This document shows positions 23,820 through 55,362 of a DNA stretch of 55,892 nt, one piece after another (position 1 is the stretch's first letter; every line of letters starts with the position of its first letter). The position numbers and the translations under genes are program-made. Origin of the DNA: Eubacteriales bacterium (GTDB taxonomy: Bacteria > Bacillota > Clostridia > Lachnospirales > Lachnospiraceae). The notes below the pieces were generated by a model. It did no database searches, was not told where the DNA came from, and was given only the letters and a program-made list of their open reading frames with translations. The stretch spans positions 1 through 55,892 of the forward strand of contig JAUNHB010000007.1 in NCBI GenBank assembly GCA_030524125.1. Direction: 5' to 3'.

Positions 23820-23826
23820 CAGAAAA

Positions 23827-34052: not shown

Positions 34053-34076
34053 GAAACGCGGCGGAGCGGATACAGG

Positions 34077-34105
34077 CCGGGGGAGTCAGTCTCCCCCGGT
34101 TTTTC
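34077..34105 (+). terminator. Partial terminator between binding-protein and ATPase genes
   Basis: CCGGGGGA and TCCCCCGG form an eight- or nine-base stem across GTCAG, followed by TTTTT. As it lies inside an operon it probably gives partial termination or stabilises the upstream mRNA. Confidence 0.7.
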
Positions 34106-34128
34106 AAAAGGAAAGAGAGGTGCCTTCG

Positions 34129-35619: not shown

Positions 35620-35640
35620 GAGCAGAACGGAGGAGAGAGT

Positions 35641-36621: not shown

Positions 36622-36632
36622 GGAGGAGCGTC

Positions 36633-37571: not shown

Positions 37572-37584
37572 ACTGTGCTATAAT

Positions 37585-37671
37585 GTTGCTATTCACAGCC
37601 GCTATGGGTCTGCGGACAGACTCGTCATGCTTGCGACGAGTGCGCATGCGGGCGGAGGGCTGTGAATAGAC
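37585..37671. mobile_element. MITE-like palindromic element with target duplication
   Basis: An 87-base segment has terminal inverted repeats (CTATTCACAGCC at 37589-37600, GGCTGTGAATAG at 37658-37669) and an internal hairpin ACTCGTC...GACGAGT. It is flanked on both sides by the octamer GCTATAAT (37577-37584 and 37672-37679), which looks like a target-site duplication. It encodes nothing. It lies between the nucleoside hydrolase and LacI genes. The flanking octamers also contain TATAAT and may serve as -10 elements, one of them in TGC-TATAAT extended form. Confidence 0.65.
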
Positions 37672-37709
37672 GCTATAATAAACCATAACAAATGTGATGA
37701 AGGTGTCGT

Positions 37710-38714: not shown

Positions 38715-38723
38715 GAGAACAAT

Positions 38724-40034: not shown

Positions 40035-40114
40035 AACAATTATTTCAGGACCTTTTCAAACGCGGAGGATTGATGTATGATGACCGTATGCGAGACAGAA
40101 AGGGGAAGAAGCAA

Positions 40115-40627
40115 ATGTTGGACAAAAAAGTAGTGGAGCTTTTGAACAAACAGGTGAACAAGGAGTTTTTCTCCGCGTATCTGTATCTGGATTTTTCCAA
40201 TTATTATTATGACGAGGGGCTGGACGGCTTCGGAAACTGGTTCAAGGTGCAGGCGCAGGAGGAGCGGGATCACGCGACTCTGATGATCCAGTATCTCCAG
40301 AACAACGGAGAGAAGGTGGAGCTGCAGGCGATCGACAAGCCCGGCGCGCCGACGAAAAGCGCGAAAGGCGTGCTGGAGGAGACGCTGAAGCACGAGCAGT
40401 ATGTGACCGGCCTGATCCACACGATCTACGACGCCGCCTATGAGGCGAAGGATTTCCGGACGATGCAGTTTCTGGACTGGTTCGTGAAGGAGCAGGGCGA
40501 GGAGGAGAAGAACGCGGAAAATCTGATCAAGAGATTCGCGCTGTTCGGAGACGATCCGAAGACGCTCTATATGCTGGACAGCGAGCTGGGAGCCAGAGTC
40601 TATGCGGCGCCGACGCTGGTCCTGTAA
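40115..40627 (+). CDS. ftnA: Bacterial ferritin (FtnA type)
   Basis: Iron-storage protein of 170 residues forming a 24-mer shell. The ferroxidase ligands are all visible: Glu17 in NKEFFSAYLYL, Glu50 and His53 in QEERDHA, then Glu residues in the KHEQYVTGLI and WFVKEQGEEEKNA helices. No haem-binding Met of bacterioferritin is seen, so this is FtnA type. ATG follows AGGGGAAG; the open frame continues far upstream in the kinase gene and is a shadow there. It lies 63 bases before the DtxR-like gene, so iron storage and iron-responsive regulators may be cotranscribed. A weak promoter (TTTCAA, 16 bases, TATGAT at 40077-40082) precedes it. Confidence 0.95.
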   Translation: MLDKKVVELLNKQVNKEFFSAYLYLDFSNYYYDEGLDGFGNWFKVQAQEERDHATLMIQYLQNNGEKVELQAIDKPGAPTKSAKGVLEETLKHEQYVTGLIHTIYDAAYEAKDFRTMQFLDWFVKEQGEEEKNAENLIKRFALFGDDPKTLYMLDSELGARVYAAPTLVL

Positions 40628-40690
40628 GGAGAGGCGGCGAAAAGACGGTACGGCAGGCAGACTGCGCGCAGCAGAAACGGAGACCGGGAG

Positions 40691-41500
40691 ATGGGATTGA
40701 TAGGAACGAACATCCCTCCCAGCAGGGAGGAAAAGGAAGAGGATCTTCTGGAGAGGCTGTACCGGGCGTGGAGAGAGGACCGGCAGCTGCTGGCGGTGGA
40801 CTTTGTGATGGAGATGAACGTCAGCCGGAAGGAGTTTAACGCGCTGGTGAAAAAGCTAGTGCATTACGGATATCTGGAGGAGCCGTCCATCCGGGACGAG
40901 CTGGAGCTGACGGATCTGGGAAAGGCGCAGGGGATGGAATGCCTGATGCGCCATGAGAAGCTGACGCAGTTTTTTCAGATGATCGGCGGCATGGATCAGA
41001 AGGAGGCCCAGGAGGACGCCTGCCGGGTGGAGCATGTGATCAGCCAGAAGGGGCTGGACGGCATCGATCATTTTCTGCGGTACGGGGACGTCTGCGACCG
41101 GACATACACGGCCTCGGATCTGAGCGCGGTCTACGACGAGGGCAGCTACGAGATGCTCTCCGGAGTCTACGAGCTGGACCGGCGGGAGCCGCGGTTTCTG
41201 GCTCCGGAGAACAGCCGTCTGGAGGCGGTCGTGACGCTCGAGGTGCGCCGCGGCGCCAGCCGGTTCCTGCTGCGGCCCAGAGCGGGAGAGCCGTGCGGCG
41301 CGGTGTGGTACAAGCGCGCAGGCCGATGGACGCAGGCGGAACGGGAGAAGGGCCGGTATGTGCTCCCCACCGACATTTTCACATACACGGTCAGCGCCGT
41401 GACTCCGGTGATGGAGGCGGAGTCCGTGATCGCGTTTACGGAGAACGGGACGGAGCCGCTTTTGTCGGAATGCCGGGAGATCAACATTCATGTGTGGTAG
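40691..41500 (+). CDS. DtxR-type metal-dependent regulator with unusual C-terminal domain
   Basis: Regulator of 269 residues. The N-terminal winged helix (about 15-80) and dimerisation region match DtxR/IdeR. The primary metal-site motif reads ACRVEHVIS, with Cys111, Glu114 and His115 corresponding to the Cys102-Glu105-His106 set of DtxR, and His88 lies in MRHEKL. Iron sensing is therefore likely. Instead of an SH3-like or FeoA domain, residues of about 130-269 form a beta-rich domain, which is shared in part with the following gene product (PTDIFTYTVSA against PLSAFKIYHGQ). It precedes the haem locus and is its probable regulator. Confidence 0.83.
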   Translation: MGLIGTNIPPSREEKEEDLLERLYRAWREDRQLLAVDFVMEMNVSRKEFNALVKKLVHYGYLEEPSIRDELELTDLGKAQGMECLMRHEKLTQFFQMIGGMDQKEAQEDACRVEHVISQKGLDGIDHFLRYGDVCDRTYTASDLSAVYDEGSYEMLSGVYELDRREPRFLAPENSRLEAVVTLEVRRGASRFLLRPRAGEPCGAVWYKRAGRWTQAEREKGRYVLPTDIFTYTVSAVTPVMEAESVIAFTENGTEPLLSECREINIHVW

Positions 41501-41515
41501 GAAAGAGGACGGATC

Positions 41516-42352
41516 ATGGAATCAGGAGAGAATCTGAAGAGACAGGACCGCCCGTCCGTGCTTCAGCTGCGCTATCTGGCGGAGCTTGACCATATGGAGA
41601 AAAAGAGGGGCGTGCAGGGAATGGTGGCCGCCCGGTGCGGGGTCAACGCCTCCACGGTGAACCGGTATTTTAAGGCGTGCATGGAAAAGGGCTATCTGGA
41701 TGAGTCCTGCGGATTTACCGACAAGGGGCGCAGATGGTTCGAGCACTACCGGAAGCTGCAGAGCCGCCTGGAACGGTATCTGAAGGAGCTTTTGGGAAGG
41801 GATTCCGAGGTGCAGGAGGCCGTCCGCTCTCTGATCGAAAATACGGACAGTCATGTGCTGGAGGCGATCCTGAGCAGCCACGAGCGTCAGAATATGCTTT
41901 CGGCAAAGCGCTCCGTCGAGCTTCCGGACAATTTAAGGGAGATGCTCAGGAGACACCGGCGTCATGAGGTGCGCTTCGGGATCTACCGCATGGGACGGGA
42001 GCAGCGGCCGGGCAGGCTCTCCATGGCCATGCGCGGCTTCCGGGAGGACGCATACCTGACGGAAGAGGAAGGAGAGGCGTATCTGGAGCTGTATGTCAGG
42101 GAGGTGACGGCCGCGTCCCGGATCGACGGGAAGACCATGGAAGGACGTCTGGACTCACTGAAATACGAAGACGGGGACACGCTTCAAAATTTGCGCATAG
42201 AGAAAGAAAAAATACAGATCCCGCTCTCGGCCTTTAAGATCTATCACGGGCAGGGCGGGCGGATCAAGGGAACGCTCGCGATCACAGTGACGTGCAGCGT
42301 GGGGCAGGCGCATATGCCGGAGAGCACGGCGTTTTTAGTGTTCTGGCTTTAA
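41516..42352 (+). CDS. DtxR-like paralogue lacking the metal motif
   Basis: Protein of 278 residues related to the preceding regulator. A winged helix is visible: VAARCGVNASTVNRYFKACM then KGYLDESCGFTDKGR. The segment matching the DtxR metal site reads TDSHVLEAILS and has lost the Cys-x2-Glu-His set. The C-terminal half is beta-rich and aligns loosely with the C-terminal domain of its neighbour. It starts 15 bases after that gene behind GAAAGAGGA, so the two are one operon. It may act as a partner or as a regulator with another ligand. A terminator follows directly. Confidence 0.72.
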   Translation: MESGENLKRQDRPSVLQLRYLAELDHMEKKRGVQGMVAARCGVNASTVNRYFKACMEKGYLDESCGFTDKGRRWFEHYRKLQSRLERYLKELLGRDSEVQEAVRSLIENTDSHVLEAILSSHERQNMLSAKRSVELPDNLREMLRRHRRHEVRFGIYRMGREQRPGRLSMAMRGFREDAYLTEEEGEAYLELYVREVTAASRIDGKTMEGRLDSLKYEDGDTLQNLRIEKEKIQIPLSAFKIYHGQGGRIKGTLAITVTCSVGQAHMPESTAFLVFWL

Positions 42353-42620: not shown

Positions 42621-42712
42621 TTGCTTAAGAAGCAATAAAAAAATATGGAAAAATATGTTGACATTAACCGGGGGACTGTGATATATATGGAATGCAAGTT
42701 AGTTAAGACTAA
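42621..42712 (+). promoter_or_regulatory. Promoter and palindromic operator candidates of the haem locus
   Basis: TTGACA (42658-42663), an 18-base spacer and TATATA (42682-42687) form a promoter 46 bases before the first gene. TTGCTT-AAG-AAGCAA (42621-42635) lies upstream. TTAGT-TAAG-ACTAA (42699-42712) lies over the start region, a position suited to repression. Which protein binds is unknown; the DtxR-like neighbours are the obvious candidates. Confidence 0.6.
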
Positions 42713-42732: not shown

Positions 42733-43206
42733 ATGAGTTCTGTATGGAAGATAAGAGCCGCGATGGCGGCTGTGATCATAGCGCTGGCGGGAGGAGTGGT
42801 CTATTACAATCACGCCCAGAGCGAGGTGACAAATTTCACTCCTGAATTTGAGGAGGGGCAGGAAGCGCCGGAAGCCTCGGAGGCTTCGGAGGAGCGGGGG
42901 ATCAAGATCCCCGGATATTCGGTCATCCCTGTGACGGCGGGGACGACGGAGGTGGCCGTGGATCTGACCAATCCGGAGGAAAATGAGGTTTATTTTCAGA
43001 TCACCTTCCTTCTGACGGATACCGGAGAGCAGATCTACCAGTCGAAGCTTTTGTCTCCGGGGCAGCATCTCTATGAGATCTCGCTGGACCGGGCGCTGGA
43101 GGCGGGAGAATACAACCTGACGATCCAGTACGACACGTTCAGCATGGACGAGGAGTACACCCCGCGCAACGGCGCGACGGTAAACTGCATCCTGCGGGCG
43201 CAGTAG
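42733..43206 (+). CDS. Small membrane-anchored extracytoplasmic protein
   Basis: Protein of 157 residues with one N-terminal transmembrane helix (about 7-24), a Glu/Ala/Ser-rich linker (35-55) and a beta-sandwich-like domain (about 56-157), with GYSVIPVTAGTTEVAVDLTN and FQITFLLTDTGEQIY. I do not recognise a named family. Its place as first gene downstream of the promoter at 42658, before the NEAT-like genes, suggests an accessory role at the cell surface. The ATG has GGGAG eight bases upstream. Confidence 0.72.
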   Translation: MSSVWKIRAAMAAVIIALAGGVVYYNHAQSEVTNFTPEFEEGQEAPEASEASEERGIKIPGYSVIPVTAGTTEVAVDLTNPEENEVYFQITFLLTDTGEQIYQSKLLSPGQHLYEISLDRALEAGEYNLTIQYDTFSMDEEYTPRNGATVNCILRAQ

Positions 43207-43316
43207 AGAACGGATTTCACGCAGAGGGCTCCGGCTTCGCAGGCTTGACGCGTACCGCGGATCCAAAGGCGTAAATCATACATATCAACTATATTTCTTA
43301 TAAGGAGGATTACTCA

Positions 43317-44246
43317 ATGAGTATCTTAAAGCGCATTGCCTCAACGGCACTTGCATTGACCCTGGTGGCGGGCTCGCTGGGAATGACGTCCCAGGCGGCG
43401 GGAAAGGCTGACAACGGAGACTATAAGGCGACAGTTCATTTCCACAAGGCTGGAACCACCGATCCGAGCGAGTCTACTTACAGTATGTGCGACTCTATCT
43501 TCGTTCACGAGGCGGACGTGACGCTGACGGACGACACGGCGACCGTCACGTTCTATGTGGCGTACCCTGTGCCGAGTTTTCCTGCTCAGGGAACAGAAGG
43601 GACGATCACAGATGTGAAGATGACCGTGGACGGAGTCGAGTATGAGGCGACCAGCGACATCACGACCAAGCCGACGAAGGTTTTTGATACGACTGGAGCG
43701 ATATTCGGGATCACGGCGGGCGACGAGCTGACGACGCAGGTGCTGACCGTGGAGCTTCCGAGAAGCGCGGTCGCCGACTTTGAGACGGGCATCGAGACGG
43801 AAGCTTACGTCAACGTTGTAATGAACAGCACGCAGAAGTTTGTCATGACGCTGGACGGCGTCCGCAATCCGGCGGTCGAGTCCATCCAGGACTCAATGGA
43901 CATCACCGCCGAGGTGGCGGCTGCAGAGGCTTCCTACAGCGTGACGATCCCGGAGAGCGTGGCGATCGGAACGCTTTCCGCAGAGCAGGACACGACGAAG
44001 GAGTATTCCGTAGCGCTTGAGGCTTCCAACCTGGGAGAGGGAATCGTGGAGATCTCCACCGACGCCGCAGGCACCCTGACGTCCGGCTCCAACACGCTGG
44101 CGTTTGCCAACAGCTTCGGAACCCAGAGCGCCGGCGAGAACGCGACGCTGACCGGAGAGATCACGATCAAGGCGGCGGACGTGGCTGCAGCGGCGGCCGG
44201 AAACTATACCGGAACCGCGAACTTTACGATCAGCTACTTTGAGTAA
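43317..44246 (+). CDS. Secreted NEAT-like haem-binding candidate
   Basis: Exported protein of 309 residues with a signal peptide (cleavage near SQAAG, residue 28). Residues of about 34-182 resemble a NEAT domain: YKATVHFHK, then SMC at 56-58 in the position of the helical lip, and AYVNVVMNSTQKF (Tyr164, Met169) in place of the usual YxxxY hairpin. A second domain (about 200-309) with YSVTIPESVAIGTLS and GNYTGTANFTISY is a beta-sandwich common in Lachnospiraceae surface proteins. There is no transmembrane helix or LPXTG at the C-terminus, so it may act as a free haemophore. ATG follows AAGGAGG. Confidence 0.78.
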   Translation: MSILKRIASTALALTLVAGSLGMTSQAAGKADNGDYKATVHFHKAGTTDPSESTYSMCDSIFVHEADVTLTDDTATVTFYVAYPVPSFPAQGTEGTITDVKMTVDGVEYEATSDITTKPTKVFDTTGAIFGITAGDELTTQVLTVELPRSAVADFETGIETEAYVNVVMNSTQKFVMTLDGVRNPAVESIQDSMDITAEVAAAEASYSVTIPESVAIGTLSAEQDTTKEYSVALEASNLGEGIVEISTDAAGTLTSGSNTLAFANSFGTQSAGENATLTGEITIKAADVAAAAAGNYTGTANFTISYFE

Positions 44247-44252
44247 GAGCGA

Positions 44253-44323
44253 AAAGCGGACGAAAAATCCGCTTTGACGACGACAGAACACGCGGGATTC
44301 CCCGGAGCGATCCGGGGAATCCC
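44253..44323 (+). terminator. Hairpins after the secreted NEAT-like gene
   Basis: AAAGCGGA...TCCGCTTT (44253-44275) is followed by a perfect 13-base stem GGGATTCCCCGGA-GCGA-TCCGGGGAATCCC (44294-44323). Neither has a long T run, so partial termination or mRNA end protection is as likely as full termination. Confidence 0.5.
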
Positions 44324-44345
44324 ACTGTCTTGCGCGATACGCCCG

Positions 44346-44467
44346 TGCAAGAGGCTGCCGTGCTTGCGCGGGCAGCCTCTTGCAGGGAAACGGACAGCGA
44401 ACAGCTTTGCTGTGAGCTGGCTGCGGTATCGCGGCGGACAGGGAAAGAAAACCTTTCCCAGTCCGAT
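44346..44467. repeat. Dispersed 122-base structured element, copy 2
   Basis: Ungapped match to 29639-29760. This copy has a perfect 14-base stem TGCAAGAGGCTGCC...GGCAGCCTCTTGCA (44346-44384), an inner ACAGC-TTT-GCTGT hairpin and a terminal GGACAGGGAAAG...CTTTCCCAGTCC stem. It ends 41 bases before the start of the large NEAT-like gene and so lies in its leader. Confidence 0.75.
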
Positions 44468-44507
44468 AGAGAAGGCGCGCAGACAAAGCGGGAGGAGACC
44501 GAGGAAG

Positions 44508-47345
44508 ATGAGGAAGAAGACCGTTTGGAAAATACTGGCCATGGTGATGGCCCTTGGAATGCCGCTTCAGGTGTGCGCGGCGTCGGCCGCAGCGAAAGAA
44601 GGAGCCGATGCGGCGAAGCCTTCCGCCGTGACGGAGACCTCCGGGGCGGAGGACGCGCCGACCGGGGAGCAGGAAGAAGAGATGGACGTCACGGCCACAG
44701 TGCCGTCGGCCTCCTCGCAGTACTATGTGGAGATCCCGGCGTCCCTTTATCTGGGAAATGTATCCGGGACGGACGATTATGAAAAGGAATATCAGGTAAA
44801 AGTATCCGGCGTGAAGAAATCCGGCGGGCAGGTAACTGTCTCGACCCCGGACACGGGCGAGCTGTACCGGACGGCAAAAAGCCGTTCGGCGTCAACGCTT
44901 TTGTTTTCCAACACCTACGGCACGCGGACTTATACAGAAGACGCGCAGACAGACGCGCAGATCAGAATTTCAAAAGAACAGATCAGGAATGCAGCTCAGG
45001 GTTCCTATGAAGGAACGGCGGAGTTTACGATTACATACAGCGCGGGGGATCAGGGAGAGGATCCAAAGCCCCCCGTGGATCCGGAGGAGCCGTCCGCAGT
45101 CACGGCTCCGGTCCGTCTGATGCAGTCCTATGATATCAGCCAGGAGAGCATGTGCAATCGGCTGTTTTACCCGGAGGCAGAGCTCACCGTAAACGGCGAC
45201 GGCACGGCGACGGTCAGGCTCTACTGCGTAAGCCCGATCCCGGCCTACGCCGACTCGGGAGCGCCGCTTACGGCGATGATCGTATCCGGCTCGAAGGAAG
45301 ATGTGAGCATCACGGGGACGACGGCGAAAGATTACAGGCTGACCGTGGGGGCGGATTCCTTTGCGGATGAGGTCCTCATCGAATCGAATGCGGGCGGGAA
45401 GGAGTACGGCGTGTACCCGGGATTTATTCCGGAGGCCGGAACGTATTCCAGCGATTCTTTCACGTTCACCATACCGGTCAGCGCCATCCGGAACAGCAGT
45501 TCCGGCGCGATCTATGTGAACGCTTATGTGAACGCGGTCATGAGCAGCTGGCAGTCGTTCTACCTGCTGTTCGACGTGGACGACGATTTCGGAAAGACGG
45601 AGGAGATCGAATACGGGGCGTACACGGTGTCGTCGCCGGGGCTTACGGGCGTGTCGGTATCCGGGCTGAAGGCGTACGCGGAGGAGAAAAAGGCGGGCGA
45701 GTATCTCTTTCAGGTGAGGTACGCTTCCTCCGGCGAGGATGCGGACAAGCTCGGCATGGCCGCCTGCGCGGAGCTGATCTCCGCCAGCGGAGTGGAGGGT
45801 AGCACGCAGTATTATTCCATGCTCCTGTCCTATGAAAATGAGGACGGGACGCAGCAGGTGACGGACACGGACGGACATGTGCTGGACATCAGTATCCCGC
45901 TCAAACAGAGCGGAAGTCAGAAGGCCGCGGTGTACCGGCATCACGAGGCGGGACGGGCGACAGGGCAGCTCACGGAGCTTACGGCGGAGCCGGCAAAGCT
46001 TCGGGACAACACCTGGTACTGGGACCGCTCGAAGGGAATCCTGCACATCTACGCGTCAAAGTTTTCGGTGTACGCGGTCCATCTGTCCACCGCCCAGACG
46101 TCGGGCGGCGCCTCCGGAGGCGGATCCGGAAGCGGCGGGACGTCCGGCGGCACGGACAGCGACGACGGTCTGGAAAATACGAGCTATACCGCGAAGGTCA
46201 GCATGAGGAAGGCGTCGGATCTTAACAGTGTGAGCATGTGCGACACGCTGTTCTACGACTATGCGGATCTGGAGGTCAATGGGAGCAGCACGAAGATGAC
46301 TCTCTACGTCATCGATCCGATCCCGAAATACGCGTCGGAGGGAACGCCTCTGTCCAACATTTCCTTCCGGACGTCGTCTGGCAGGGTGTCGGCGTCGCTG
46401 AGCACGAGCAAGGTGAGCCGCTACTTCCCGGCGGACAGTACGTTCATCGGATCTGCCGGAAATTACAACAGCGACCCGATCACGGTCACGCTGCCCACCT
46501 CCGCTCTGCGCTCTTCCGGAAAAGGGACGGTGATCTGCCAGGCGTATGTCAACGCCGTCATGAAGAGCACGCAGGAATTTTATGTGGTGCTCTCCGACTG
46601 GGAGGAAGGGGAGACGAAGAGCTCCGGCGAGGCGCAGACCATCGACACGGAGAACGAGGCGCAGGCGCTGACGACGCAGACCTCGGAGAGCGGCTCGTCC
46701 GTCACGACGGCCTCGTCGTCCTCGGGCGTGAAGACGGGCGTCTATCAGGTGCCCATCAGCGCGCTGAAGGAAAAGAGCGACGACTCCAGCATGATGAACG
46801 ATTATATGTACCGGTACGCGGAGCTTGCGGTGACGGAAAAGAGCGCGAAGCTTACCGTTTATATCCAGCATACGGTGGCCGGGATCGAGAGCGGAGGCCC
46901 CAGATACATTTCGTACCAATCCGCCAACGCATCAAAGACGGAGCACGCGGCCACCTTCGACGGGATCTCCTACGACAGCTTCACGCTGACGCTGTCCAAT
47001 CCGGTCCCGAACATTCTTCCGGTGACCATGTATATCAACGCCATGTCCATGGAAGTGAACGCGCGCCTCGTGCTGGATCTGAATAAAATGGCGGCGACGG
47101 AAGGACTGGACGGCGGAGACGGAAGCACGGCGGAAGCCCTGTCCGGCAGTGAGGGCGGGACGGGAACAGGAAACACAGGAAACGCGGCGGCCGAGGCGCT
47201 TGCCGGAGCCGGATCGGGCATCAGAACGGCGGCCATGCGGCTGGAGGCCGGATCGACGCTTCTGAAGGCGCTGCTTGCGCTGATCGCGCTGGGACTTCTG
47301 GGACTTGGCGGCAGCGCGGCTTATCTTAGATACAGGAGACGGTAA
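44508..47345 (+). CDS. Membrane-anchored protein with three NEAT-like domains (Shr-like)
   Basis: Surface protein of 945 residues. A signal peptide (cleavage near CAASA, residue 25) leads to a beta-sandwich domain (60-178) similar to that of the previous protein. NEAT-like domains follow at about 201-357 (SMC 214-216, YVNAVM 340-345), 556-697 (SMC 576-578, YVNAVM 680-685) and 743-860 (SMM 761-763, YINAMSM 842-848); the last, beginning GVYQVPISALKEKSDDSSMM, looks most like classical NEAT. A separate region (370-526) and a Gly/Ser linker lie between the first two. The C-terminus has one transmembrane helix and RYRRR. ATG follows GGAGGAGACCGAGG; the frame extends upstream through a repeat and was trimmed. 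Probable haem receptor. Confidence 0.8.
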   Translation: MRKKTVWKILAMVMALGMPLQVCAASAAAKEGADAAKPSAVTETSGAEDAPTGEQEEEMDVTATVPSASSQYYVEIPASLYLGNVSGTDDYEKEYQVKVSGVKKSGGQVTVSTPDTGELYRTAKSRSASTLLFSNTYGTRTYTEDAQTDAQIRISKEQIRNAAQGSYEGTAEFTITYSAGDQGEDPKPPVDPEEPSAVTAPVRLMQSYDISQESMCNRLFYPEAELTVNGDGTATVRLYCVSPIPAYADSGAPLTAMIVSGSKEDVSITGTTAKDYRLTVGADSFADEVLIESNAGGKEYGVYPGFIPEAGTYSSDSFTFTIPVSAIRNSSSGAIYVNAYVNAVMSSWQSFYLLFDVDDDFGKTEEIEYGAYTVSSPGLTGVSVSGLKAYAEEKKAGEYLFQVRYASSGEDADKLGMAACAELISASGVEGSTQYYSMLLSYENEDGTQQVTDTDGHVLDISIPLKQSGSQKAAVYRHHEAGRATGQLTELTAEPAKLRDNTWYWDRSKGILHIYASKFSVYAVHLSTAQTSGGASGGGSGSGGTSGGTDSDDGLENTSYTAKVSMRKASDLNSVSMCDTLFYDYADLEVNGSSTKMTLYVIDPIPKYASEGTPLSNISFRTSSGRVSASLSTSKVSRYFPADSTFIGSAGNYNSDPITVTLPTSALRSSGKGTVICQAYVNAVMKSTQEFYVVLSDWEEGETKSSGEAQTIDTENEAQALTTQTSESGSSVTTASSSSGVKTGVYQVPISALKEKSDDSSMMNDYMYRYAELAVTEKSAKLTVYIQHTVAGIESGGPRYISYQSANASKTEHAATFDGISYDSFTLTLSNPVPNILPVTMYINAMSMEVNARLVLDLNKMAATEGLDGGDGSTAEALSGSEGGTGTGNTGNAAAEALAGAGSGIRTAAMRLEAGSTLLKALLALIALGLLGLGGSAAYLRYRRR

Positions 47346-48335
47346 ATGACATACGCAGAAAAAAAGAGCAAAACAAAAAGGAATCTACTGGCCTGCCTGC
47401 TGGCGGGCGCGGTCCTTCTGGCCGGTCTCCCCGCGGAGGCGCAGGCGGCGGAAGAGAGCAGTAAGCTTTACACGGTGACGGTCACGGGACATTACCGGGA
47501 TCCGCAGACGCAGGAGATCTCGGACTCGGGCGGAGAGGACAACGCGGCGCTCGGGGAGTCCATGGTGGGAAGCGTGGTGGACCCCACGGGCCTGCTGACA
47601 GAGACGGAGGACGGCGACTGGACGCTGTCGCTGCGCTTCCATCTGATGAACAATATTTCCAACGTGGCGTTTCAGGCGCAGGCGGAGGGCGAGAGCGGCT
47701 GGTCGGAGGCGAGCTTTCAGAAGACCGGCTCCGGAGACGACACCGGAGATTTCTGCGTGCTGCTTCCGGCGGAGAGCTCGACTTTGAAGGCGGAGTGCTA
47801 CGTGGACGCCATGGGAAGAGACGTCGTCTTTTTCCTGACCTACGGCGACCGGCAGGAAGGAAATACGACGGATCTTGCAGAGGCGGGAAGCTTTGACGCG
47901 GTTTCCTCCGGGGCCGGTCTTGACGAGGCGGACGGGCTTGTGATCGGTACGGCCGGCTCCGGCGCTTCGGACGGCGGTCAGGATGCGGCGGACGCCGGGG
48001 ACGCCGGAGAGCAGGAGGCCGCGCTGACAGGGGAGGCCGGGAGCATCCGTCTGGGAGACAGCGTGTGGGTCACGCTGTTCGGGATCCTCTTCTGCTCGTT
48101 TTTGCTGGCGGGACTGGTGCTCCTGCTGATCGCGGGTCTGCTGATCTATATTTATTTCCTGAAGACAGGGATCCTTGAGGTGAGACTGGCGGATCCGAAG
48201 CGCAGAGGCGGCGCGCGCGGACGGAAAGCGGACGATCCTGACGAGGAGGACTGGGAGGACGAAACGGACGACGATCTGGATCTGGGCTTTCTCGACGACG
48301 AAGACGAGCCTGACGACGAGGAGGAAGATGGATGA
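47346..48335 (+). CDS. Shp-like membrane-anchored haem-binding protein
   Basis: Surface protein of 329 residues. A signal peptide (to about residue 35) precedes a domain (40-170) resembling Shp of streptococci, which passes haem to the ABC importer using two Met ligands. The Shp-like start YTVTVTGHYRDPQTQEISDS leads to ALGESM (Met73), and the hairpin is CYVDAMGRDVVFFLTYGD (Tyr152, Met156); the spacing of 83 residues is close to the 87 between the Shp ligands. One transmembrane helix near 237-268 is followed by a very acidic cytoplasmic tail (over 20 Asp/Glu), which is unusual. ATG directly follows the stop of the NEAT-like gene. Confidence 0.82.
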   Translation: MTYAEKKSKTKRNLLACLLAGAVLLAGLPAEAQAAEESSKLYTVTVTGHYRDPQTQEISDSGGEDNAALGESMVGSVVDPTGLLTETEDGDWTLSLRFHLMNNISNVAFQAQAEGESGWSEASFQKTGSGDDTGDFCVLLPAESSTLKAECYVDAMGRDVVFFLTYGDRQEGNTTDLAEAGSFDAVSSGAGLDEADGLVIGTAGSGASDGGQDAADAGDAGEQEAALTGEAGSIRLGDSVWVTLFGILFCSFLLAGLVLLLIAGLLIYIYFLKTGILEVRLADPKRRGGARGRKADDPDEEDWEDETDDDLDLGFLDDEDEPDDEEEDG

Positions 48336-49240
48336 GAAGAAAAATCGGTCTGTGCGTCCTTCTGGCAGCGGCGGCGCTGCTCACGGGCTGCGCGGTGCGG
48401 CAGGGAGGAAGCACGGCGAACGCGGGAGCCTCGGAGGGTCTGAACGGAGACGAGCTTCGGATCGCGGCCACGAGTCCGGCTGTGATGACCATTTGCGAGA
48501 GGCTTGATCTTCCGCTGGTGGGCGTACCCACCAGCTCGCTGACGGAGGTTCCCGAGCGGTATCGGGACGCCACAGAGCTTGGAAGCCCCATGAGCCCGGA
48601 TATGGAGATTTTAAAGAGCTTAAGCCCCGACTGGGTCTTAAGCCCCTCTTCGCTCCAGAGCGACCTGCAGCCGAAATATGAGGAGGCCGGGTTAAACTAT
48701 GCCTTTTTGAATCTGAAAAGCGTGCCGGGCATGTACAAATCCATTGAGGAGCTGGGCGCGCTCTTTGGAAAGGAAGCGGAGGCGCAGGCTCAGATCGACG
48801 AGTACACGGCCCTCTATGAGGAGCTGGAAGCCAGCCATGAGGGCAAGGAGGGGCCGACCGTGCTGCTCCTGATGGGCATTCCGGGCTCCTATATCGTGGC
48901 CACGGAAAATTCCTACGCGGGCAGTCTCGTGGAGCTGGCCGGGGGAAGGAATGTGTACGCCGGGACGGATCAGGAGTTTTTGTCGGTCAATACGGAGGAT
49001 ATGCTGGAGAAAGACCCGGACGTGATCCTGCGGACGGCCCACGCCCTGCCTGAGCAGGTCATGGAAATGTTCGCGGAGGAGTTTGAAACCAACGATATCT
49101 GGAAGCACTTCACGGCGGTGCAGGAGGGGCGCGTCTACGATCTGACGGCGGGTTATTTCGGCATGAGCGCCACCTTTGACTACGTGGACGCTCTGGAGGA
49201 ACTGGATGAAATTTTTTACGCACAGGAGGATGACGCATGA
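48332..49240 (+). CDS. isdE: IsdE-type haem ABC transporter lipoprotein
   Basis: Substrate-binding lipoprotein of 302 residues, lipobox LLTGC (Cys20). The fold is the two-lobed type of iron-complex binding proteins, with LRIAATSPAVMTICERLDLP and RYRDATELGSPMSPDMEILK. IsdE of Staphylococcus binds haem with Met78 and His229; here Met87 in GSPMSPD and His237 in RTAHALP lie in the same motifs. Haem as ligand is therefore well supported. The ATG overlaps the Shp-like gene's stop (ATGA), and the stop overlaps the permease start in the same way. Confidence 0.9.
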   Translation: MRRKIGLCVLLAAAALLTGCAVRQGGSTANAGASEGLNGDELRIAATSPAVMTICERLDLPLVGVPTSSLTEVPERYRDATELGSPMSPDMEILKSLSPDWVLSPSSLQSDLQPKYEEAGLNYAFLNLKSVPGMYKSIEELGALFGKEAEAQAQIDEYTALYEELEASHEGKEGPTVLLLMGIPGSYIVATENSYAGSLVELAGGRNVYAGTDQEFLSVNTEDMLEKDPDVILRTAHALPEQVMEMFAEEFETNDIWKHFTAVQEGRVYDLTAGYFGMSATFDYVDALEELDEIFYAQEDDA

Positions 49241-50244
49241 ACCGGGGACAGGCGAGGGCGGCGGGAAGAAAAATAGCGGTGACGGCGGTATTTCTGGCCG
49301 CGCTCCTTGGACTTTTCTTTCTGTCTGTCAATCTGGGCAGCTTAAAGGTGAGCTTTGGAGAGCTGTTCCGCGGCCTTTTTATCGAGGCGGACGAGCAGGT
49401 ACAGACCATTTATGACCTGCGTTTCCCGCGGATTCTCATTTCCATGCTGGCGGGAGCGGGCCTGGCGGTGTCGGGGGCTCTTTTGCAGGCGGTGCTCAAA
49501 AATCCGCTGGCAGACCCGGGCATCATCGGCGTGTGCAGCGGCGCGCAGCTTGCCACCGTGCTTGTGGCGGCGCTTCTTCCGGGACTTTACGGGGCGGCTC
49601 CCCTTTTCAGCTTTCTGGGCGGCCTTCTGGCCTTCTGGATGGTCTATCTGTTTTCGCGGAAAAACGGCTTCTCCTCCCTGCGGCTGATTCTCGTGGGAAT
49701 CGCGGTGCAGGCGCTCTTTTCGGGCCTCTCAAACGCGCTGAATTCCTTCAGCGGCGGCAATATTTCTACGGTCACCTCCATCGTGGAGGGAAATATTACG
49801 ATGAAAACCTGGAGCGACGTCAATACGCTCTGCTGGTTTGTGATTCCCGGCCTTCTGGCGGCGCTGCTTCTGGGAAGGTGGTGCAATCTTCTGGGGCTGG
49901 AGGACAAGACGGTGCGGGGGCTTGGCATGAATGTGAGCCGGATGCAGCTGATCATCAGCCTCGTGTCGGTTCTGCTGGCCTCCAGCTGTACGGCCATCGT
50001 GGGCGTGGTGGGCTTTCTGGCTCTGCTTGTTCCCCATATCGGACGGCTGCTGGTGGGGAGCGATCACAGGTATCTCCTGCCCTTTTCGGCCATCCTCGGA
50101 GCGCTGATCTATCTGGCGGCCGACACGGCGGGGCGCACGATCGCCTATCCGTATGAGATCAGCGCCGCTATTTTGATGAGCGTCATCGGCGGTCCGGTCT
50201 TTATCCTATTGCTGCAAAGGAGCACGATCACACATGGAAAATAA
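49237..50244 (+). CDS. isdF: Haem ABC transporter permease (FecCD family)
   Basis: Permease of 335 residues with about ten membrane helices. FecCD family landmarks are RFPRILISMLAGAGLAVSGA, LLQAVLKNPLADPGIIGVCSGAQLA (split here only for length) and, near the C-terminus, GFLALLVPHIGRLLVGSDHR, the coupling segment to the ATPase. It overlaps the lipoprotein gene by four bases and the ATPase gene by 11, giving a tightly coupled importer operon. Haem specificity is inferred from the partner lipoprotein. Confidence 0.92.
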   Translation: MNRGQARAAGRKIAVTAVFLAALLGLFFLSVNLGSLKVSFGELFRGLFIEADEQVQTIYDLRFPRILISMLAGAGLAVSGALLQAVLKNPLADPGIIGVCSGAQLATVLVAALLPGLYGAAPLFSFLGGLLAFWMVYLFSRKNGFSSLRLILVGIAVQALFSGLSNALNSFSGGNISTVTSIVEGNITMKTWSDVNTLCWFVIPGLLAALLLGRWCNLLGLEDKTVRGLGMNVSRMQLIISLVSVLLASSCTAIVGVVGFLALLVPHIGRLLVGSDHRYLLPFSAILGALIYLAADTAGRTIAYPYEISAAILMSVIGGPVFILLLQRSTITHGK

Positions 50245-51016
50245 AAATGCCTTTGAAGTCAGAAATCTGTCCTTTGCCTATGGGGAGAAGCAGATCGTGA
50301 AAAACTTAAGCTTCGACGTTCCGAGAGGAAAGGTCGTCACGCTCATGGGAGCCAACGGCTGCGGGAAATCCACGCTGTTCCAGCTGCTCACGAAGAATCT
50401 GACGCCGGGGGCCGGAAGCATCCGCATGAACGGCGAGGAGATCTCGAGGATCGGCCTGAAAAGCTTCGCGCAGCAGGCGGCCATCGTGCACCAGTACAAT
50501 ACGGCCCCGTCGGACATCACGGTGGAGCAGCTGGTGGCCTACGGGCGGACGCCCTTTTACCGCTTCGGACAGGGACGGCGCACGGAGGAGGACGAGCGGA
50601 TGATCGAGCGGGCTCTCCGGATCACGCGGGTGGACGCCTTCCGGGACAGGGCGGTGCATCAGCTCTCGGGAGGGCAGAAGCAGCGGGTGTGGATCGCCAT
50701 GGCGCTGGCCCAGGGAACGAGGACGCTCCTGCTGGACGAACCCACCACCTATCTGGATGTGCGCTACCAGATCCAGCTTCTGCGCCTGATCCGCGCTCTG
50801 AACCAGAAATACCGCACGACGATCCTGATGGTGCTTCACGACATCAATCAGGCGGTCAGCTACAGCGACGAGATCATCGCGCTGTCGCCGAAGGGAGAGC
50901 TGGTGGCGCAGGGAGAGCCCCGGAGCATCATCAACGAGGCGAATCTGAAAAAGATGTACCGCATCGATCTGGAGACGAAGGATTGGGATGGACGGCGCTT
51001 CGTCCTGACTGTATAA
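50234..51016 (+). CDS. Haem ABC transporter ATPase (FhuC/HmuV-like)
   Basis: ATP-binding subunit of 260 residues. Walker A GANGCGKST is near residues 37-45, signature LSGGQKQRV near 140, Walker B TLLLDEPTTYLDV and switch His in VLHDINQAV. DEPTTYLD and the C-terminal lengths match ATPases of iron-siderophore and haem importers. It starts inside the permease gene behind AAAGGAG. It is followed after 15 bases by the DUF454 gene. Confidence 0.93.
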   Translation: MENKNAFEVRNLSFAYGEKQIVKNLSFDVPRGKVVTLMGANGCGKSTLFQLLTKNLTPGAGSIRMNGEEISRIGLKSFAQQAAIVHQYNTAPSDITVEQLVAYGRTPFYRFGQGRRTEEDERMIERALRITRVDAFRDRAVHQLSGGQKQRVWIAMALAQGTRTLLLDEPTTYLDVRYQIQLLRLIRALNQKYRTTILMVLHDINQAVSYSDEIIALSPKGELVAQGEPRSIINEANLKKMYRIDLETKDWDGRRFVLTV

Positions 51017-51031
51017 TAAATGAGGTGTATC

Positions 51032-51439
51032 ATGAAAAATCCATTGAGAATTTTGTGGCTGGCCGCCGGCTTTTTGTGCATGGGGCTTGGAATCTTAGGC
51101 GTCGCGCTGCCGGTGCTTCCCACCACGCCCTTTTTGCTGGTGGCGTCCTTCTGCTTTGCGAAGGGCTCGGACCGCTTTCACCGCTGGTTTACGAACACGG
51201 GACTCTATAAAAAGCATCTGGAGGGCTTCGTGCAGAACCGGGCCATGACGCTCCGGGCGAAGCTGACGCTTCTGATCCCGGTGTCGTGCATGCTGCTTCT
51301 GGCCTTTTTCGCCATGCAGAATCTATATGGAAGGATCGTGATCGTGCTGCTGATCGTACTGAAATACACGTATTTCTTTACGCAGGTGCGCACGATCCCG
51401 GCGGGGGAGACAGTGGAAAACAGGCGGAATCTGCCATGA
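51032..51439 (+). CDS. DUF454 (YbaN-family) inner membrane protein
   Basis: Membrane protein of 135 residues with the conserved N-terminal signature AAGFLCMGLGILGVALPVLP followed by TTPFLLVASFCFAKGS, which defines the DUF454/YbaN family. Two further hydrophobic segments near 80-120 complete about four helices. Family members often lie beside haem and iron genes, but their biochemical role is unknown. The second in-frame ATG (51032) is preferred because GAGGTG precedes it; the first is four codons upstream. It overlaps the next gene by four bases. Confidence 0.88.
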   Translation: MKNPLRILWLAAGFLCMGLGILGVALPVLPTTPFLLVASFCFAKGSDRFHRWFTNTGLYKKHLEGFVQNRAMTLRAKLTLLIPVSCMLLLAFFAMQNLYGRIVIVLLIVLKYTYFFTQVRTIPAGETVENRRNLP

Positions 51440-51795
51440 GGGATGTGGAAAAGAAGCGCAAAAAAGAGCAGTACGTGGTGGAGGAGATGATCCGCCTGTA
51501 TTGCCGGAAACATCACAGGGAAGATCTGGAGACGGTGCAGGCAGGGCAGCTTTGCCCTGTCTGTCAGCAGTTGTCCGACTATGCCAGACTCAGGAGCGAG
51601 AAATGTCCGTTCATGGAGGAAAAAACCTTCTGCGCCAACTGTAAGGTACACTGCTACAAGCCGGAAATGCGGCAGCGCATCCGGGAGGTCATGCGCTTCT
51701 CCGGGCCGCGGATGCTGCTTTATCATCCGGTGCTGGCCGTCTGGCATCTGATCTGCAGCAGGAAGGAAAAACGAAAAGGAAAAGGGAATGATTAA
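51436..51795 (+). CDS. YgbA-type cysteine-rich protein (nitric/nitrous-oxide-stimulated promoter family)
   Basis: Small cytosolic protein of 119 residues of the YgbA_NO family. The conserved cysteine pattern is LCPVCQQL, EKCPFM, FCANCKVHCYKP, and the C-terminus has MRQRIREVMRFSGPRMLLYH, the family's most conserved part. Seven to eight cysteines suggest an iron-sulfur cluster, zinc or haem iron site; nothing is proven here. In enterobacteria the gene responds to nitric oxide. The ATG overlaps the DUF454 stop, and the stop overlaps the next gene by eight bases. Confidence 0.9.
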   Translation: MRDVEKKRKKEQYVVEEMIRLYCRKHHREDLETVQAGQLCPVCQQLSDYARLRSEKCPFMEEKTFCANCKVHCYKPEMRQRIREVMRFSGPRMLLYHPVLAVWHLICSRKEKRKGKGND

Positions 51796-53578
51796 AAAGA
51801 GACTGGTGGACCTGTTGTCCCACGCGAAAAAATATATTGCATACCATGTTTTGTGGCAGTGGATCGCGCTGCTCACACAGATCGCGGCCGTCTGGGCGAT
51901 CGCGGGCCTTCTGGAGACGGCTTTGACGGTGCCCGGATCTGCGGGCATGGGCGGCGCATGGAGCATGCTCAGCGCTTCCGGGGCGGCGTCTCTTTCGGAA
52001 GCCGCTCTTTCCACGGCGCTGATTCTGATTCTCTGCGCCGCCGTCCGCTTTTTCTGCGAAAAGCAGCAGGCCCGCGTCTCCTATCTGGCAAGCGCGGACG
52101 TAAAGAAACTGCTTCGACGCAAAATCTACGAGAAGATGCTGCGTCTGGGCGCGGCCTACCGGGAGCAGGTATCCACCTCCGAGGTGATACAGGTCTGCAC
52201 CGAGGGCGTGGAGCAGCTGGAGATCTATTTCGGGAAATATCTGCCCCAGCTTTTTTACAGCCTTCTGGCTCCGCTCACGCTCTTTCTGGCGCTGAGCCGG
52301 GTGAGCATGAAGGCGGCGCTCGTGCTGCTCGTCTGCGTGCCGCTGATCCCGATCTCCATTGTGCTGGTACAGAAGTTGGCCAAGCGGCTGCTGAACAAAT
52401 ACTGGAGCATCTATACGGGGCTTGGGGATTCCTTTCTGGAAAATCTCCAGGGGCTGACCACGCTCAAAATCTATCAGGCGGACGAGAAGAAGGCTGAGGC
52501 CATGGACGAGGAGGCCCAGAACTTCCGCAGGATCACTATGAAGGTGCTGACCATGCAGCTTAATTCCACCAGCGTCATGGACATCGTGGCCTACGGCGGA
52601 GCGGCGGCAGGCATGATCATGGCCGTCAGCGAATTTTTAAACGGTCGGATCGGCATTGGCGGAGCGCTGCTTATCATTTTGCTGGCTTCGGAATTTTTTA
52701 TTCCGCTGCGGCTTTTGGGCTCCTTCTTCCATATCGCCATGAATGGTATGGCGGCCAGCGACAAGATTTTCGCGATCCTCGATCTGCCGGAGCCGGCGTA
52801 CGGAGAGCGGGAGATCCCGGAGGGCGAGGCGGAGATCCGGCTTCGCGGCGTGCGCTTCTCCTACGAGAGCGACAGGGAGATTTTAAAGGAGATCGACCTT
52901 ACGCTGCCGCCCAGGAGCTTCGTTTCTCTGGCGGGAGAATCCGGCTGCGGAAAGAGTACCATAGCCGGGCTTCTGGCAGGGAAAAACAGAGGCTTTACCG
53001 GGGAGATCACCATCGGCGGGGAACCTCTTTCCGCCATCAAAGAGGAGAGCCTGGCAGAGCACATCGTGCTGGTGCGTCACGACAGCTATTTATTCAAGGG
53101 AACGGTGGAGGATAATCTTCGGATGGCGAAGCCGGACGCGAGAGAGGAAGAGATGGAGGCAGTCCTCGATAAGGTGAAGCTTCTGGACTTCCTGAAGGCC
53201 CAGCAGGGGCTTCGGACGCCGCTTCTTGAGCGGGCCGGAAATCTCTCCGGCGGGCAGAGGCAGCGTCTGGCCCTGGCAAGGGCGATCCTTCGGGACGCGC
53301 CTGTCTATATTTTTGACGAGGCCACCAGCAATATCGATCTGGAGAGCGAGGAGCTGATCATGGAAGTGATTCATGAGCTTGCCAGAAGCAAGACCGTGCT
53401 GCTCATTTCCCATCGTCTGGCCAATGTGGTGGACTCGGACTGCATTTATTTCCTGTCGGAGGGACGGATCGAGGAGCATGGAACCCATAAGGAGCTGATG
53501 GAGACGGACGGCGGCTACCGCCGCCTGTATGAGAGCCAGCAGAAGCTGGAGCAGTATGGAAAGGAGGCGAGGGCATGA
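51788..53578 (+). CDS. CydD-like ABC transporter half (permease plus ATPase)
   Basis: Fused exporter-type protein of 596 residues: six-helix membrane domain (about 1-320) then ATPase domain with Walker A GESGCGKST, signature LSGGQRQRL, Walker B VYIFDEATSNID and switch HRLANV. The ARxSYLASADVKKLLRRKIYEK segment and overall form resemble CydD of the CydDC heterodimer, which exports thiols and binds haem in Escherichia coli. The partner follows with ATGA overlap. As no cytochrome bd genes are nearby, a role in moving haem or a reductant at this haem locus is more plausible; this is inference. Confidence 0.85.
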   Translation: MIKKRLVDLLSHAKKYIAYHVLWQWIALLTQIAAVWAIAGLLETALTVPGSAGMGGAWSMLSASGAASLSEAALSTALILILCAAVRFFCEKQQARVSYLASADVKKLLRRKIYEKMLRLGAAYREQVSTSEVIQVCTEGVEQLEIYFGKYLPQLFYSLLAPLTLFLALSRVSMKAALVLLVCVPLIPISIVLVQKLAKRLLNKYWSIYTGLGDSFLENLQGLTTLKIYQADEKKAEAMDEEAQNFRRITMKVLTMQLNSTSVMDIVAYGGAAAGMIMAVSEFLNGRIGIGGALLIILLASEFFIPLRLLGSFFHIAMNGMAASDKIFAILDLPEPAYGEREIPEGEAEIRLRGVRFSYESDREILKEIDLTLPPRSFVSLAGESGCGKSTIAGLLAGKNRGFTGEITIGGEPLSAIKEESLAEHIVLVRHDSYLFKGTVEDNLRMAKPDAREEEMEAVLDKVKLLDFLKAQQGLRTPLLERAGNLSGGQRQRLALARAILRDAPVYIFDEATSNIDLESEELIMEVIHELARSKTVLLISHRLANVVDSDCIYFLSEGRIEEHGTHKELMETDGGYRRLYESQQKLEQYGKEARA

Positions 53579-55362
53579 GCGGCGGAAAGGATGCGAAGAT
53601 CATGGACAGCCGGACGGAGAGGAAACCGGACGGCAAGTCAGGCGCGGAGCGGCGCAGCGCCGGAAAAATCATGTGGAGCCTCATCGGACTTGTGAAGCCC
53701 CTGCTTCATATTATGGCGCTGGCGATTCTGCTCGGGACAGCCGGGTATCTCTGCGCGATTTTTCTCACGATTCTGGCGGGGAAGGCGCTGCTGTACGGAC
53801 TTTCGGCGGCAGGCGGCCCGCTGGCGGAGGCGGGGCTTTTGGCAGGCGGCGCCGCGTCCGGCGCGGCCCGGGCCTGCTTTATCGTCCTGATCGTGCTGGC
53901 GGTCGCCAGAGGTCTGCTCCATTACGCGGAGCAGTACTGCAATCATTTTATCGCCTTCAAGCTTCTGGCCATCATCCGCCATCAGGTGTTCGCGGCCCTG
54001 CGGAGGCTCTGCCCCGCGAAGCTTGAGGGACGGGACAAGGGAAATCTGATTTCCATTATCACCACGGATATTGAGCTTCTGGAGGTGTTTTATGCTCACA
54101 CCATCTCGCCTGTGGCCATCGCCGTGCTGACCTGCGGCATTATGACGGTATTTATCGGGAGCCATCACGTGCTGGCCGGGGCGCTGGCGCTTCTTGGTTA
54201 TGTGACGGTGGGCCTTCTGATCCCCTTATGGAACGGGAAAAAGGGCGGGAGCAGAGGCATGGAGTACCGGATGAAATTCGGGGAGCTGAACAGCTTTGTG
54301 CTGGACTCTCTGCGCGGACTTGACGAGACCCTGCAGTACGGGCAGGGAGAGGTAAGGGAGGCGCAGATGCTGGAGCGTTCGAATCTTCTGGCTGGGGATC
54401 AGCGGGAGCTTGGAAGGCTCGAGGGAAATCAAAGAGCCGTCACGAATCTGGCGATTCTCGTATTTTCCTTCGGGATGCTCTTTTTGAGCCTCTGGCTCTA
54501 CAGCCGGGGCGAGATGGATTTCGCCGGGCTTTTGACGAGTACCATTGCCATGATGGGCTCCTTCGGCCCGGCTGTGGCTCTCTCCAGCCTCTCCAACAAC
54601 CTGAATCAGACGCTGGCCAGCGGCGAGCGCGTGCTCTCCATTCTCGAGGAGCAGCCTCTGGTAGAAGAGATTCCGGAAGGGGCGGGCGCGGACTGGAACG
54701 GAGCGGCGCATTTCACCGGAGCGGAGGCGGAGCGCGTGACCTTCGCCTACGAGGACGAGACGATCCTGAAGGATTTCTCCCTGTCCATGGAGCCGGGAAA
54801 AATCATCGGCATCCACGGGGCCAGCGGCTCGGGAAAATCCACACTTTTGAAGCTTCTGATGCGGTTCTGGGACGTGCAGGCGGGAAGCGTGCGGGTGAGC
54901 GGCGAGGATGTGCGCCGGATTCCCACGGGACGCCTGCGGGACGCGGAGAGCTATGTGACCCAGGAAACCCATCTGTTCCACGACTCCATCGCCAACAATA
55001 TCGCGGTGGGAAAGCCCGGGGCCTCCCGGGAGGAGATCGTGGCCGCGGCCAAGAAGGCCTCCGTCCACGAATTTATTGCGAAGCTTCCCAAAGGCTATGA
55101 TACGGAGGTGGGCGAGCTTGGCGACACCTTATCCGGCGGAGAGAAGCAGCGGATCGGCATCGCCCGCGCCTTCCTCCACGACGCACCCTTCCTGCTCATG
55201 GACGAGCCCACCAGCAATCTCGACTCGCTGAACGAGGGCATCATCCTCAAATCTCTCCGGGAGGAGAGCGCGGAGCGGACGGTGGTGCTGGTGTCCCACC
55301 GGAGCTCGACCATGAATGTGGCGGATGTGGTGCATGAGATGGAGACGGGGAGGGTGTCGTAG
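53575..55362 (+). CDS. CydC-like ABC transporter half (permease plus ATPase)
   Basis: Partner of the preceding protein, 595 residues. A charged N-terminal tail of about 30 residues precedes a six-helix membrane domain and an ATPase domain with Walker A GASGSGKST, signature LSGGEKQRI, Walker B FLLMDEPTSNLDS and switch His in VSHRSSTM. Two intact ATP sites are therefore possible in the heterodimer. It closes the haem-locus operon of tightly overlapping genes that begins with the large NEAT-like gene. Confidence 0.85.
   Translation: MSGGKDAKIMDSRTERKPDGKSGAERRSAGKIMWSLIGLVKPLLHIMALAILLGTAGYLCAIFLTILAGKALLYGLSAAGGPLAEAGLLAGGAASGAARACFIVLIVLAVARGLLHYAEQYCNHFIAFKLLAIIRHQVFAALRRLCPAKLEGRDKGNLISIITTDIELLEVFYAHTISPVAIAVLTCGIMTVFIGSHHVLAGALALLGYVTVGLLIPLWNGKKGGSRGMEYRMKFGELNSFVLDSLRGLDETLQYGQGEVREAQMLERSNLLAGDQRELGRLEGNQRAVTNLAILVFSFGMLFLSLWLYSRGEMDFAGLLTSTIAMMGSFGPAVALSSLSNNLNQTLASGERVLSILEEQPLVEEIPEGAGADWNGAAHFTGAEAERVTFAYEDETILKDFSLSMEPGKIIGIHGASGSGKSTLLKLLMRFWDVQAGSVRVSGEDVRRIPTGRLRDAESYVTQETHLFHDSIANNIAVGKPGASREEIVAAAKKASVHEFIAKLPKGYDTEVGELGDTLSGGEKQRIGIARAFLHDAPFLLMDEPTSNLDSLNEGIILKSLREESAERTVVLVSHRSSTMNVADVVHEMETGRVS

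Follow-up and report, generated by a model that had tools for sequence, protein, structure and literature searches.

A probable iron-repressed haem-import operon of the Shp/IsdE kind in a Lachnospiraceae genome

The iron pigment haem, found in blood and meat, is taken up through NEAT and Shp proteins by systems that have been studied mainly in pathogens. Among the loci compared here, the closest published gene order to that of the cluster analysed below is the cht locus of Clostridium perfringens, which, in the part of PMC5026354 devoted to it, joins a NEAT protein, a Shp-like protein, a binding protein, a permease, an ATPase and two permease–ATPase fusions in one operon, is expressed under iron limitation and has NEAT domains without the haem tyrosines; according to the authors, its ChtE and ChtA keep the ligand residues of Shp and HtsA. 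The streptococcal sia/hts system comprises Shr, Shp and SiaABC; its Shr/Shp operon is controlled by MtsR, a DtxR-family repressor, and Shr is built of two NEAT domains with leucine-rich repeats between them (PMC6593403, sections on these proteins). The cluster described here lies in a stretch of 55,892 nucleotides, the whole of which we call the window, from a Lachnospiraceae bacterium (GenBank assembly GCA_030524125.1, contig JAUNHB010000007.1, positions 1 to 55,892 of the forward strand). We conclude that it is in all likelihood an iron-repressed haem-import operon of the Shp/IsdE kind, with a relay of surface capture, Shp, lipoprotein and permease.

All open reading frames (ORFs) named in a preliminary description of the window were found on one strand in its ORF listing (Table 1), and the Shp, IsdE, FecCD, ATPase, DUF454 and YgbA assignments made there all exceeded the curated cut-offs of Pfam or NCBIfam. 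The Shp-family protein scored 144.6 bits against a cut-off of 26.4 (PF11545), and its best solved relative was Shp itself (PDB 2q7a, E = 1.3e-13). The lipoprotein scored 379.9 bits against the IsdE equivalog cut-off of 298.65 (TIGR03659, NCBIfam) and matched 5joq (Lmo2184) and 2q8p (IsdE) at 1.8e-73 and 6.5e-68. The overlapping start and stop codons that had been described from the Shp gene onward were seen at most junctions; from Shp to the CydC-like gene the gaps are −4, −4, −11, +3, −4, −8 and −4 nt, the +3 being that between the ATPase gene and DUF454, which starts at 51020. The start codon of the YgbA gene is likely ATG 51436.

In the proposed relay, the secreted haemophore-like protein and the membrane-anchored three-domain receptor would capture extracellular haem and deliver it to Shp; from Shp it would go on to the IsdE-type lipoprotein, and it would enter the cell by way of the FecCD permease with its ATPase. 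A surface-to-cytoplasm relay had been suggested before; the Shp and IsdE gene families on which it would run do occur in Lachnospiraceae. The sequences show the gene families, their order, the conserved residues and a palindrome that recurs; from them we infer haem binding, the direction of transfer and iron repression. The locus would then be a known kind of haem importer in a new setting; the domains of its surface chain probably hold haem by two methionines, its operator is probably that of an iron regulon, and a module of further genes is linked to it.

Comparison of the loci revealed both likenesses and differences. Relative to cht, the window cluster (i) has no sortase signal, (ii) carries a different palindrome, (iii) counts DUF454 and YgbA among its operon genes and (iv) encodes a haemophore-like protein; cht has a sortase, a Fur box described in the literature and, five ORFs upstream, a gene for a haem oxygenase (PMC5026354, description of that locus). 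With sia/hts it shares the Shp family, the residues for the hand-over from Shp to the lipoprotein, and a DtxR-family regulator, which is MtsR in the streptococci (PMC6593403, passages on the operon) and the candidate reg1 in the window. The leucine-rich repeats of Shr were not detected in the receptor, in which NEAT is the only Pfam domain at E up to 1; the earlier label of a Shr/Shp-like locus is supported as to the Shp/IsdE-type relay, and no evidence was found that the receptor is Shr. With the staphylococcal Isd system the cluster has in common an IsdE-type lipoprotein, a FecCD permease and NEAT-like receptors; it differs in the presence of Shp, in having no sortase signal and no YxxxY motif, and in that no IsdG was seen in the locus. 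In agreement with the preliminary description, Pfam detected no LPXTG-type anchor in the surface proteins of the window at E up to 1; the same library detects such an anchor in one relative (L123; L-numbers denote the loci and G-numbers the genomes compared, G000 being the genome of the window).

We read the N-terminal domain of the 309-aa haemophore-like protein (hereafter the 309-aa N-domain) and domains 1 to 3 of the receptor as divergent members of the NEAT/Shp group. NEAT (PF05031) exceeded its cut-off in the long surface ORF only (36.2 versus 32.8 bits), with domain 3 as the best stretch; the 309-aa protein and domains 1 and 2 gave no Pfam hit of their own, PF05031 included. The NEAT/Shp membership expected earlier was accordingly matched directly for Shp and, through domain 3, for the long ORF, and the remaining domains are linked to it by profiles. 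In an iterative profile search with the 309-aa N-domain as the query, round 1 recovered domains 1 and 2 (E = 2e-42 and 2e-53) and part of domain 3 (6e-4), round 2 recovered domain 3 at 5e-18, and round 3 reached three Pfam-confirmed NEAT domains of a Bacillus locus (L097) at 1e-17 to 3e-32. When family alignments were compared by hhalign, the 309-aa N-domain gave 99.8% with domain 2 and 82.9% with domain 3; domain 2 gave 91.8% with domain 3 and 92.0% with Shp; and domain 1 gave 80.4% with Shp and 79.4% with domain 3. Against Bacilli NEAT domains, the values of domains 1 and 2 and of the 309-aa N-domain lay between 3 and 17%. With a profile of 13 NEAT-like domains, the PDB gave 10 hits at E up to 1, of which six were NEAT/Shr proteins and four chance-like. 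The top two were “Iron Transport-associated domain” chains at weak E values of 0.0033 and 0.0041, followed by a designed protein; the further NEAT/Shr matches were an IsdA, a streptococcal haemoprotein receptor and two “Conserved domain protein” chains, which we take to be IsdX1. The 309-aa family profile matched nothing in the PDB, and a single-sequence search returned one meaningless match.

The conserved residues point to the way in which haem may be held. Met73 and Met156 of Shp are invariant in 64/64 aligned relatives and lie 87 apart in the alignment with 2q7a, as do Met66 and Met153, which are named as the Shp haem ligands (PMC5026354, passage on Shp). The 13 aligned NEAT-like domains, 4 of them from the window, have five invariant columns, including the Met of the SM motif and a late Met (13/13 each), and in the hhalign comparisons both fall on the methionines of Shp for domains 2 and 3 as well as for the 309-aa N-domain. 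Because of this alignment we favour Met as the ligand in the NEAT-like domains as well: in all five NEAT/Shp-like domains of the window, the iron of haem is probably held by two Met, one in SM[CMV] and one on the YVNAVM/YVDAM strand. The YxxxY haem motif is absent from the corresponding strand in the four NEAT-like domains of the window; in a wider set it occurs in 36/215 non-Bacilli versus 95/108 Bacilli domains, a count for which the reversed control is uninformative since the pattern reads alike in both directions. The ligands of the lipoprotein are probably Met87 and His237, as in streptococcal HtsA, and both are kept in 79/79 aligned sequences.

Several points weigh against the domain and ligand assignments. 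The hhalign values against Shp are just 14% for domain 3 and 35.6% for the 309-aa N-domain; the late Met of domain 1 sits one column off relative to Shp; the count of a Met in the late segment, which is found in 201/215 non-Bacilli versus 27/108 Bacilli domains, has the Bacilli domains as its sole control; and an M..Q pattern was dropped as evidence after it matched 119/215 domains versus 75/215 in the reversed control. The late-Met and YxxxY counts extend the view of clostridial NEAT domains taken by Honsa et al., whose group likewise has no YxxxY and a conserved Met in the β7–β8 region; in its treatment of those domains that work proposed Phe as a possible ligand and Met as a contact of the haem vinyl, whereas the alignment with Shp favours Met as the ligand (PMC4143258). 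Transport of another tetrapyrrole or an iron chelate instead of haem, which would fit the matches of the permease and the ATPase to siderophore, citrate and B12 importers, is very unlikely, given the IsdE equivalog score, the invariant Met and His of the lipoprotein and the invariant ligand residues of Shp. The predicted Met–Met domains lend themselves to a simple binding test.

A scan with the IsdE-type protein, one genome per species, gave 78 loci, and a Shp gene was found in 52 of them. Genes for the 157-aa protein, the haemophore-like protein and a further surface protein recur as one set with those for Shp, IsdE and the permease in Fournierella, Gemmiger sp. An194, a Faecalibacterium bin, Scatomonas, Falcatimonas (L063, with a 443-aa variant) and G258. 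The 157-aa protein stays together with the haemophore-like gene in L023, L049, L050, L051, L063 and L072; it has no NEAT match and no Pfam family over cut-off. The N-terminus of the receptor, ahead of domains 1 to 3, is a domain common to it and the C-terminus of the haemophore-like protein (36% identity), for which no family was found and which is possibly a docking domain. Among 20 proteins of other loci, mostly from genes upstream of Shp, 15 exceeded the Pfam NEAT cut-off, one (L026, 594 aa) fell below it, and four had no NEAT hit, namely two haemophore-like proteins, the L063 variant and the L051 receptor. In L023, L026 and L072, a NEAT-type surface protein is fused to FMN_bind (Pfam) with the sequence SGATYS, presumably a flavin attachment motif, and our own profile finds this fusion in L023, L026, L072 and L088. 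One could picture an all-Met relay for ferrous haem without oxygen, in which a CydDC-like thiol exporter and the FMN_bind receptors of L023, L026 and L072 would keep the envelope reducing and DUF454 and YgbA would take part in a new oxygen-free route to haem iron; we regard this as a speculative and rather improbable extension. An open-access literature search found no paper joining flavinylation, heme and the NEAT domain, with NEAT unmentioned in the flavinylation papers that were word-searched, and nothing on a NEAT domain with heme in Lachnospiraceae.

The likely promoter of the operon is followed by the perfect palindrome TTAGTTAAGACTAA (TTAG-N6-CTAA), the sole such site in the window, which presumably resembles the DtxR/IdeR boxes. 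Six related loci have two or three TTAG-N6-CTAA sites each at the equivalent place. By automatic call, the palindrome lies no more than 450 bp from the operon start in 31/63 non-Bacilli versus 0/24 Bacilli loci (29/60 non-Bacilli without three duplicate records; background 0.038 per 490 bp), two of the misses, the window and L072, being due to wrong automatic operon starts, as both carry the site. The pattern GTTAG-N6-CTAA matched 13 times across the whole genome, at 8 places that include one adjacent pair. On G000 contig 66 (L206), one site starts 16 bp before feoB, and the adjacent pair precedes a DUF3793–flavodoxin pair by 18 bp; other sites lie by genes that were named by eye as NuoE-like, enolase and ABC transporter genes. 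Because the palindrome recurs at related loci and beside feoB and the flavodoxin gene, the operon looks iron-regulated through it; a DtxR-type repressor is predicted to act at this site, and the operon would be iron-repressed. Three considerations run counter to this prediction: a reversed-pattern control still gave 3 matches versus 13, and the palindrome counts some sites twice; 5/8 places have no classic iron gene or no gene identity; and a FUR-family gene between feoB and the DUF3793–flavodoxin pair provides a candidate binder besides the DtxR-type protein.

The operon continues beyond the importer with DUF454, YgbA and a CydDC-like pair. DUF454 occurs in 18/20 Shp-bearing versus 50/279 other Lachnospiraceae genomes (Fisher p = 5e-11, uncorrected for kinship), within 10 kb of Shp in 13/20 Shp-bearing genomes, and YgbA in 9/20 versus 26/279, these counts including two DUF454 genomes and one YgbA genome below the family cut-off. 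The two genes are at most 1 kb apart in 23/30 genomes holding both. Among the named loci, those with Shp carry DUF454 in 34/52 and a CydDC-like gene in 29/52 cases, versus 1/26 and 2/26 of those without, the 26 including L054, a record that starts with the lipoprotein gene. Each of the seven Cys of YgbA is kept in 97–100% of 35 aligned sequences. At 39 picked DUF454 neighbourhoods, a CydDC-like gene lies within 2 kb on the same strand in 25 cases, and in 23/36 of those from Shp-negative genomes. The block of DUF454, YgbA and CydDC-like genes was also seen in Lachnospiraceae without Shp (L145–L183). An iron-stress module in its own right that merely happens to sit in the operon, a reading to which we give somewhat less than an even chance, would account for the DUF454 genes of the Shp-negative genomes and for L158, where the block adjoins feoB along with genes for a FUR protein and a P-type ATPase; the enrichment of DUF454 in Shp-bearing genomes, its proximity to Shp and the contrast between named loci with and without Shp speak against mere parking.

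The CydDC-like pair resembles both the CydDC of cytochrome bd assembly and the PefCD haem exporter (PMC4837585, part on PefCD) in being paired half ABC exporters. Its CydD-like member failed the CydD equivalog test (399.8 versus 435 bits, TIGR02857), and cytochrome bd subunit I was found in 0/299 genomes of the family and 0/17 of the genus, with 10/14 controls positive and the genome of the window itself 80% complete. Since subunit I is in 0/299, a part of the pair in assembling cytochrome bd is very improbable here; in role the pair may be a PefCD-like exporter of haem or porphyrin, or a thiol exporter. DUF454, YgbA and the CydDC-like pair most likely guard the cell against imported haem or porphyrin, help to get rid of it, or provide reductant. 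DUF454 is raised under iron restriction in Avibacterium (PMC7970244, expression results), and an open-access literature search found no paper joining any two of DUF454, CydD and YgbA. The link of haem import to these genes offers a concrete way into families that have no assigned role here or perhaps a wrong one.

As to the fate of the haem, the preliminary description had seen no haem oxygenase and suggested intact use. None was found among the locus proteins scanned, and the HutW/ChuW-type enzyme HutW exceeded its curated cut-off in 0/26 genomes with the locus (with sub-cut-off matches in 26/26 and 1/14 controls over cut-off); the genome-wide search covered HutW, and that for IsdG- and HO-1-types was not made. 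These negatives would suit import of haem as a cofactor that is used intact, the CydDC-like pair serving cytochrome assembly. We nevertheless think this unlikely, in view of the missing cytochrome bd subunit I (the one haem protein searched for), the CydD-like score below cut-off and the palindrome common to the operon and feoB. The palindrome, being common to the operon, feoB and the flavodoxin gene, argues for iron nutrition.

The importer is patchy across Lachnospiraceae: with one genome per genus, Shp was found in 20/299 genomes. It is also present in named species such as Fournierella massiliensis and Robinsoniella peoriensis, which are gut anaerobes, and haem from meat or bleeding arrives in the gut. 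Within the genus of the window, Shp is in 1/17 genomes, which is the genome of the window, and in 0/16 congeners, yet the left flank (22000–41900) is matched in every one of the 16 congeners, at up to 86% nt identity; the island thus appears either to have been acquired by this lineage or to have disappeared from the others. The right end of the island lies past the contig end. A mis-binned piece of another organism would likewise explain the absence of Shp from congeners, in a genome that is 80% complete and has a second partial copy, 74% identical, on a 3.8-kb contig; this explanation is highly improbable, as the flank matches all congeners and contains a short repeat common to many other contigs of the genome. 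The repeat is intergenic (~29770–30440), consists of ~160-bp units and recurs also in congener G312.

Table 1. Features of the haem-import locus and its left flank (window coordinates)
Feature	Position	Strand	Remarks
Ferritin	40121..40627	+	Pfam Ferritin 4.2e-39; native to genus, marks left flank of island
reg1, DtxR-type regulator candidate, 269 aa	40691..41500	+	Fe_dep_repr_C 1.9e-11
reg2, winged-helix protein, 278 aa	41516..42352	+	wHTH Pfam 2.5e-6
Likely promoter, TTGACA - 18 nt - TATATA	42658..42687	+	Seen by eye; not listed by automatic scan
Probable operator, perfect palindrome TTAGTTAAGACTAA	42699..42712	+	Just downstream of likely promoter
157-aa accessory protein	42733..43206	+	N-terminal hydrophobic segment (by eye)
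Secreted haemophore-like protein, 309 aa	43317..44246	+	Signal peptide (by eye), probable Met–Met NEAT-like domain, family-less C-terminal domain
Membrane-anchored receptor, 945 aa	44508..47345	+	NEAT-like domains 1, 2, 3; C-terminal hydrophobic segment, basic tail
Shp-family surface haem protein	47346..48335	+	PF11545 E = 2.5e-42; Met73, Met156, hydrophobic segment, acidic tail
IsdE-family haem-binding lipoprotein	48332..49240	+	TIGR03659; Met87, His237
FecCD permease	49237..50244	+	PF01032 2.6e-83
Importer ABC ATPase	50234..51016	+	ABC_tran PF00005 5.4e-34
DUF454 protein	51020..51439	+	PF04304 1e-36
YgbA-family protein	51436..51795	+	YgbA_NO PF11756 5.8e-45; seven conserved Cys
CydD-like half ABC exporter	51788..53578	+	TIGR02857 399.8 bits, under 435 cut-off
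CydC-like half ABC exporter	53575..55362	+	ABC_membrane + ABC_tran; homologues paired with CydD-like gene

For the receptor, TTG 44274 was replaced as the start codon by the likely ATG 44508. The ferritin gene on the left flank has 67–77% nt identity in four congeners among the matches listed; three congener ferritin loci that were compared hold no haem-locus protein except for a generic ATPase match in one, and in the one whose ORFs were listed other genes come after ferritin. The reg1 protein carries a DtxR dimerisation domain (Pfam) and has only partial matches in congeners, at 26–33% identity (15/16 congeners with a match), and a reg2 homologue, often near Shp loci, is present at 17/52 named loci with Shp. 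A search with an anti-phage library gave no match. The second partial copy of receptor, Shp and IsdE (L041/L002, G000 contig 82, 3.8 kb) is ~74% identical in nucleotides, and 95% in the last 100 bases; it may represent either a duplication or a strain mixture. Elsewhere in the family, L030 is identical to the Robinsoniella peoriensis locus L052 over 18,095 bases.

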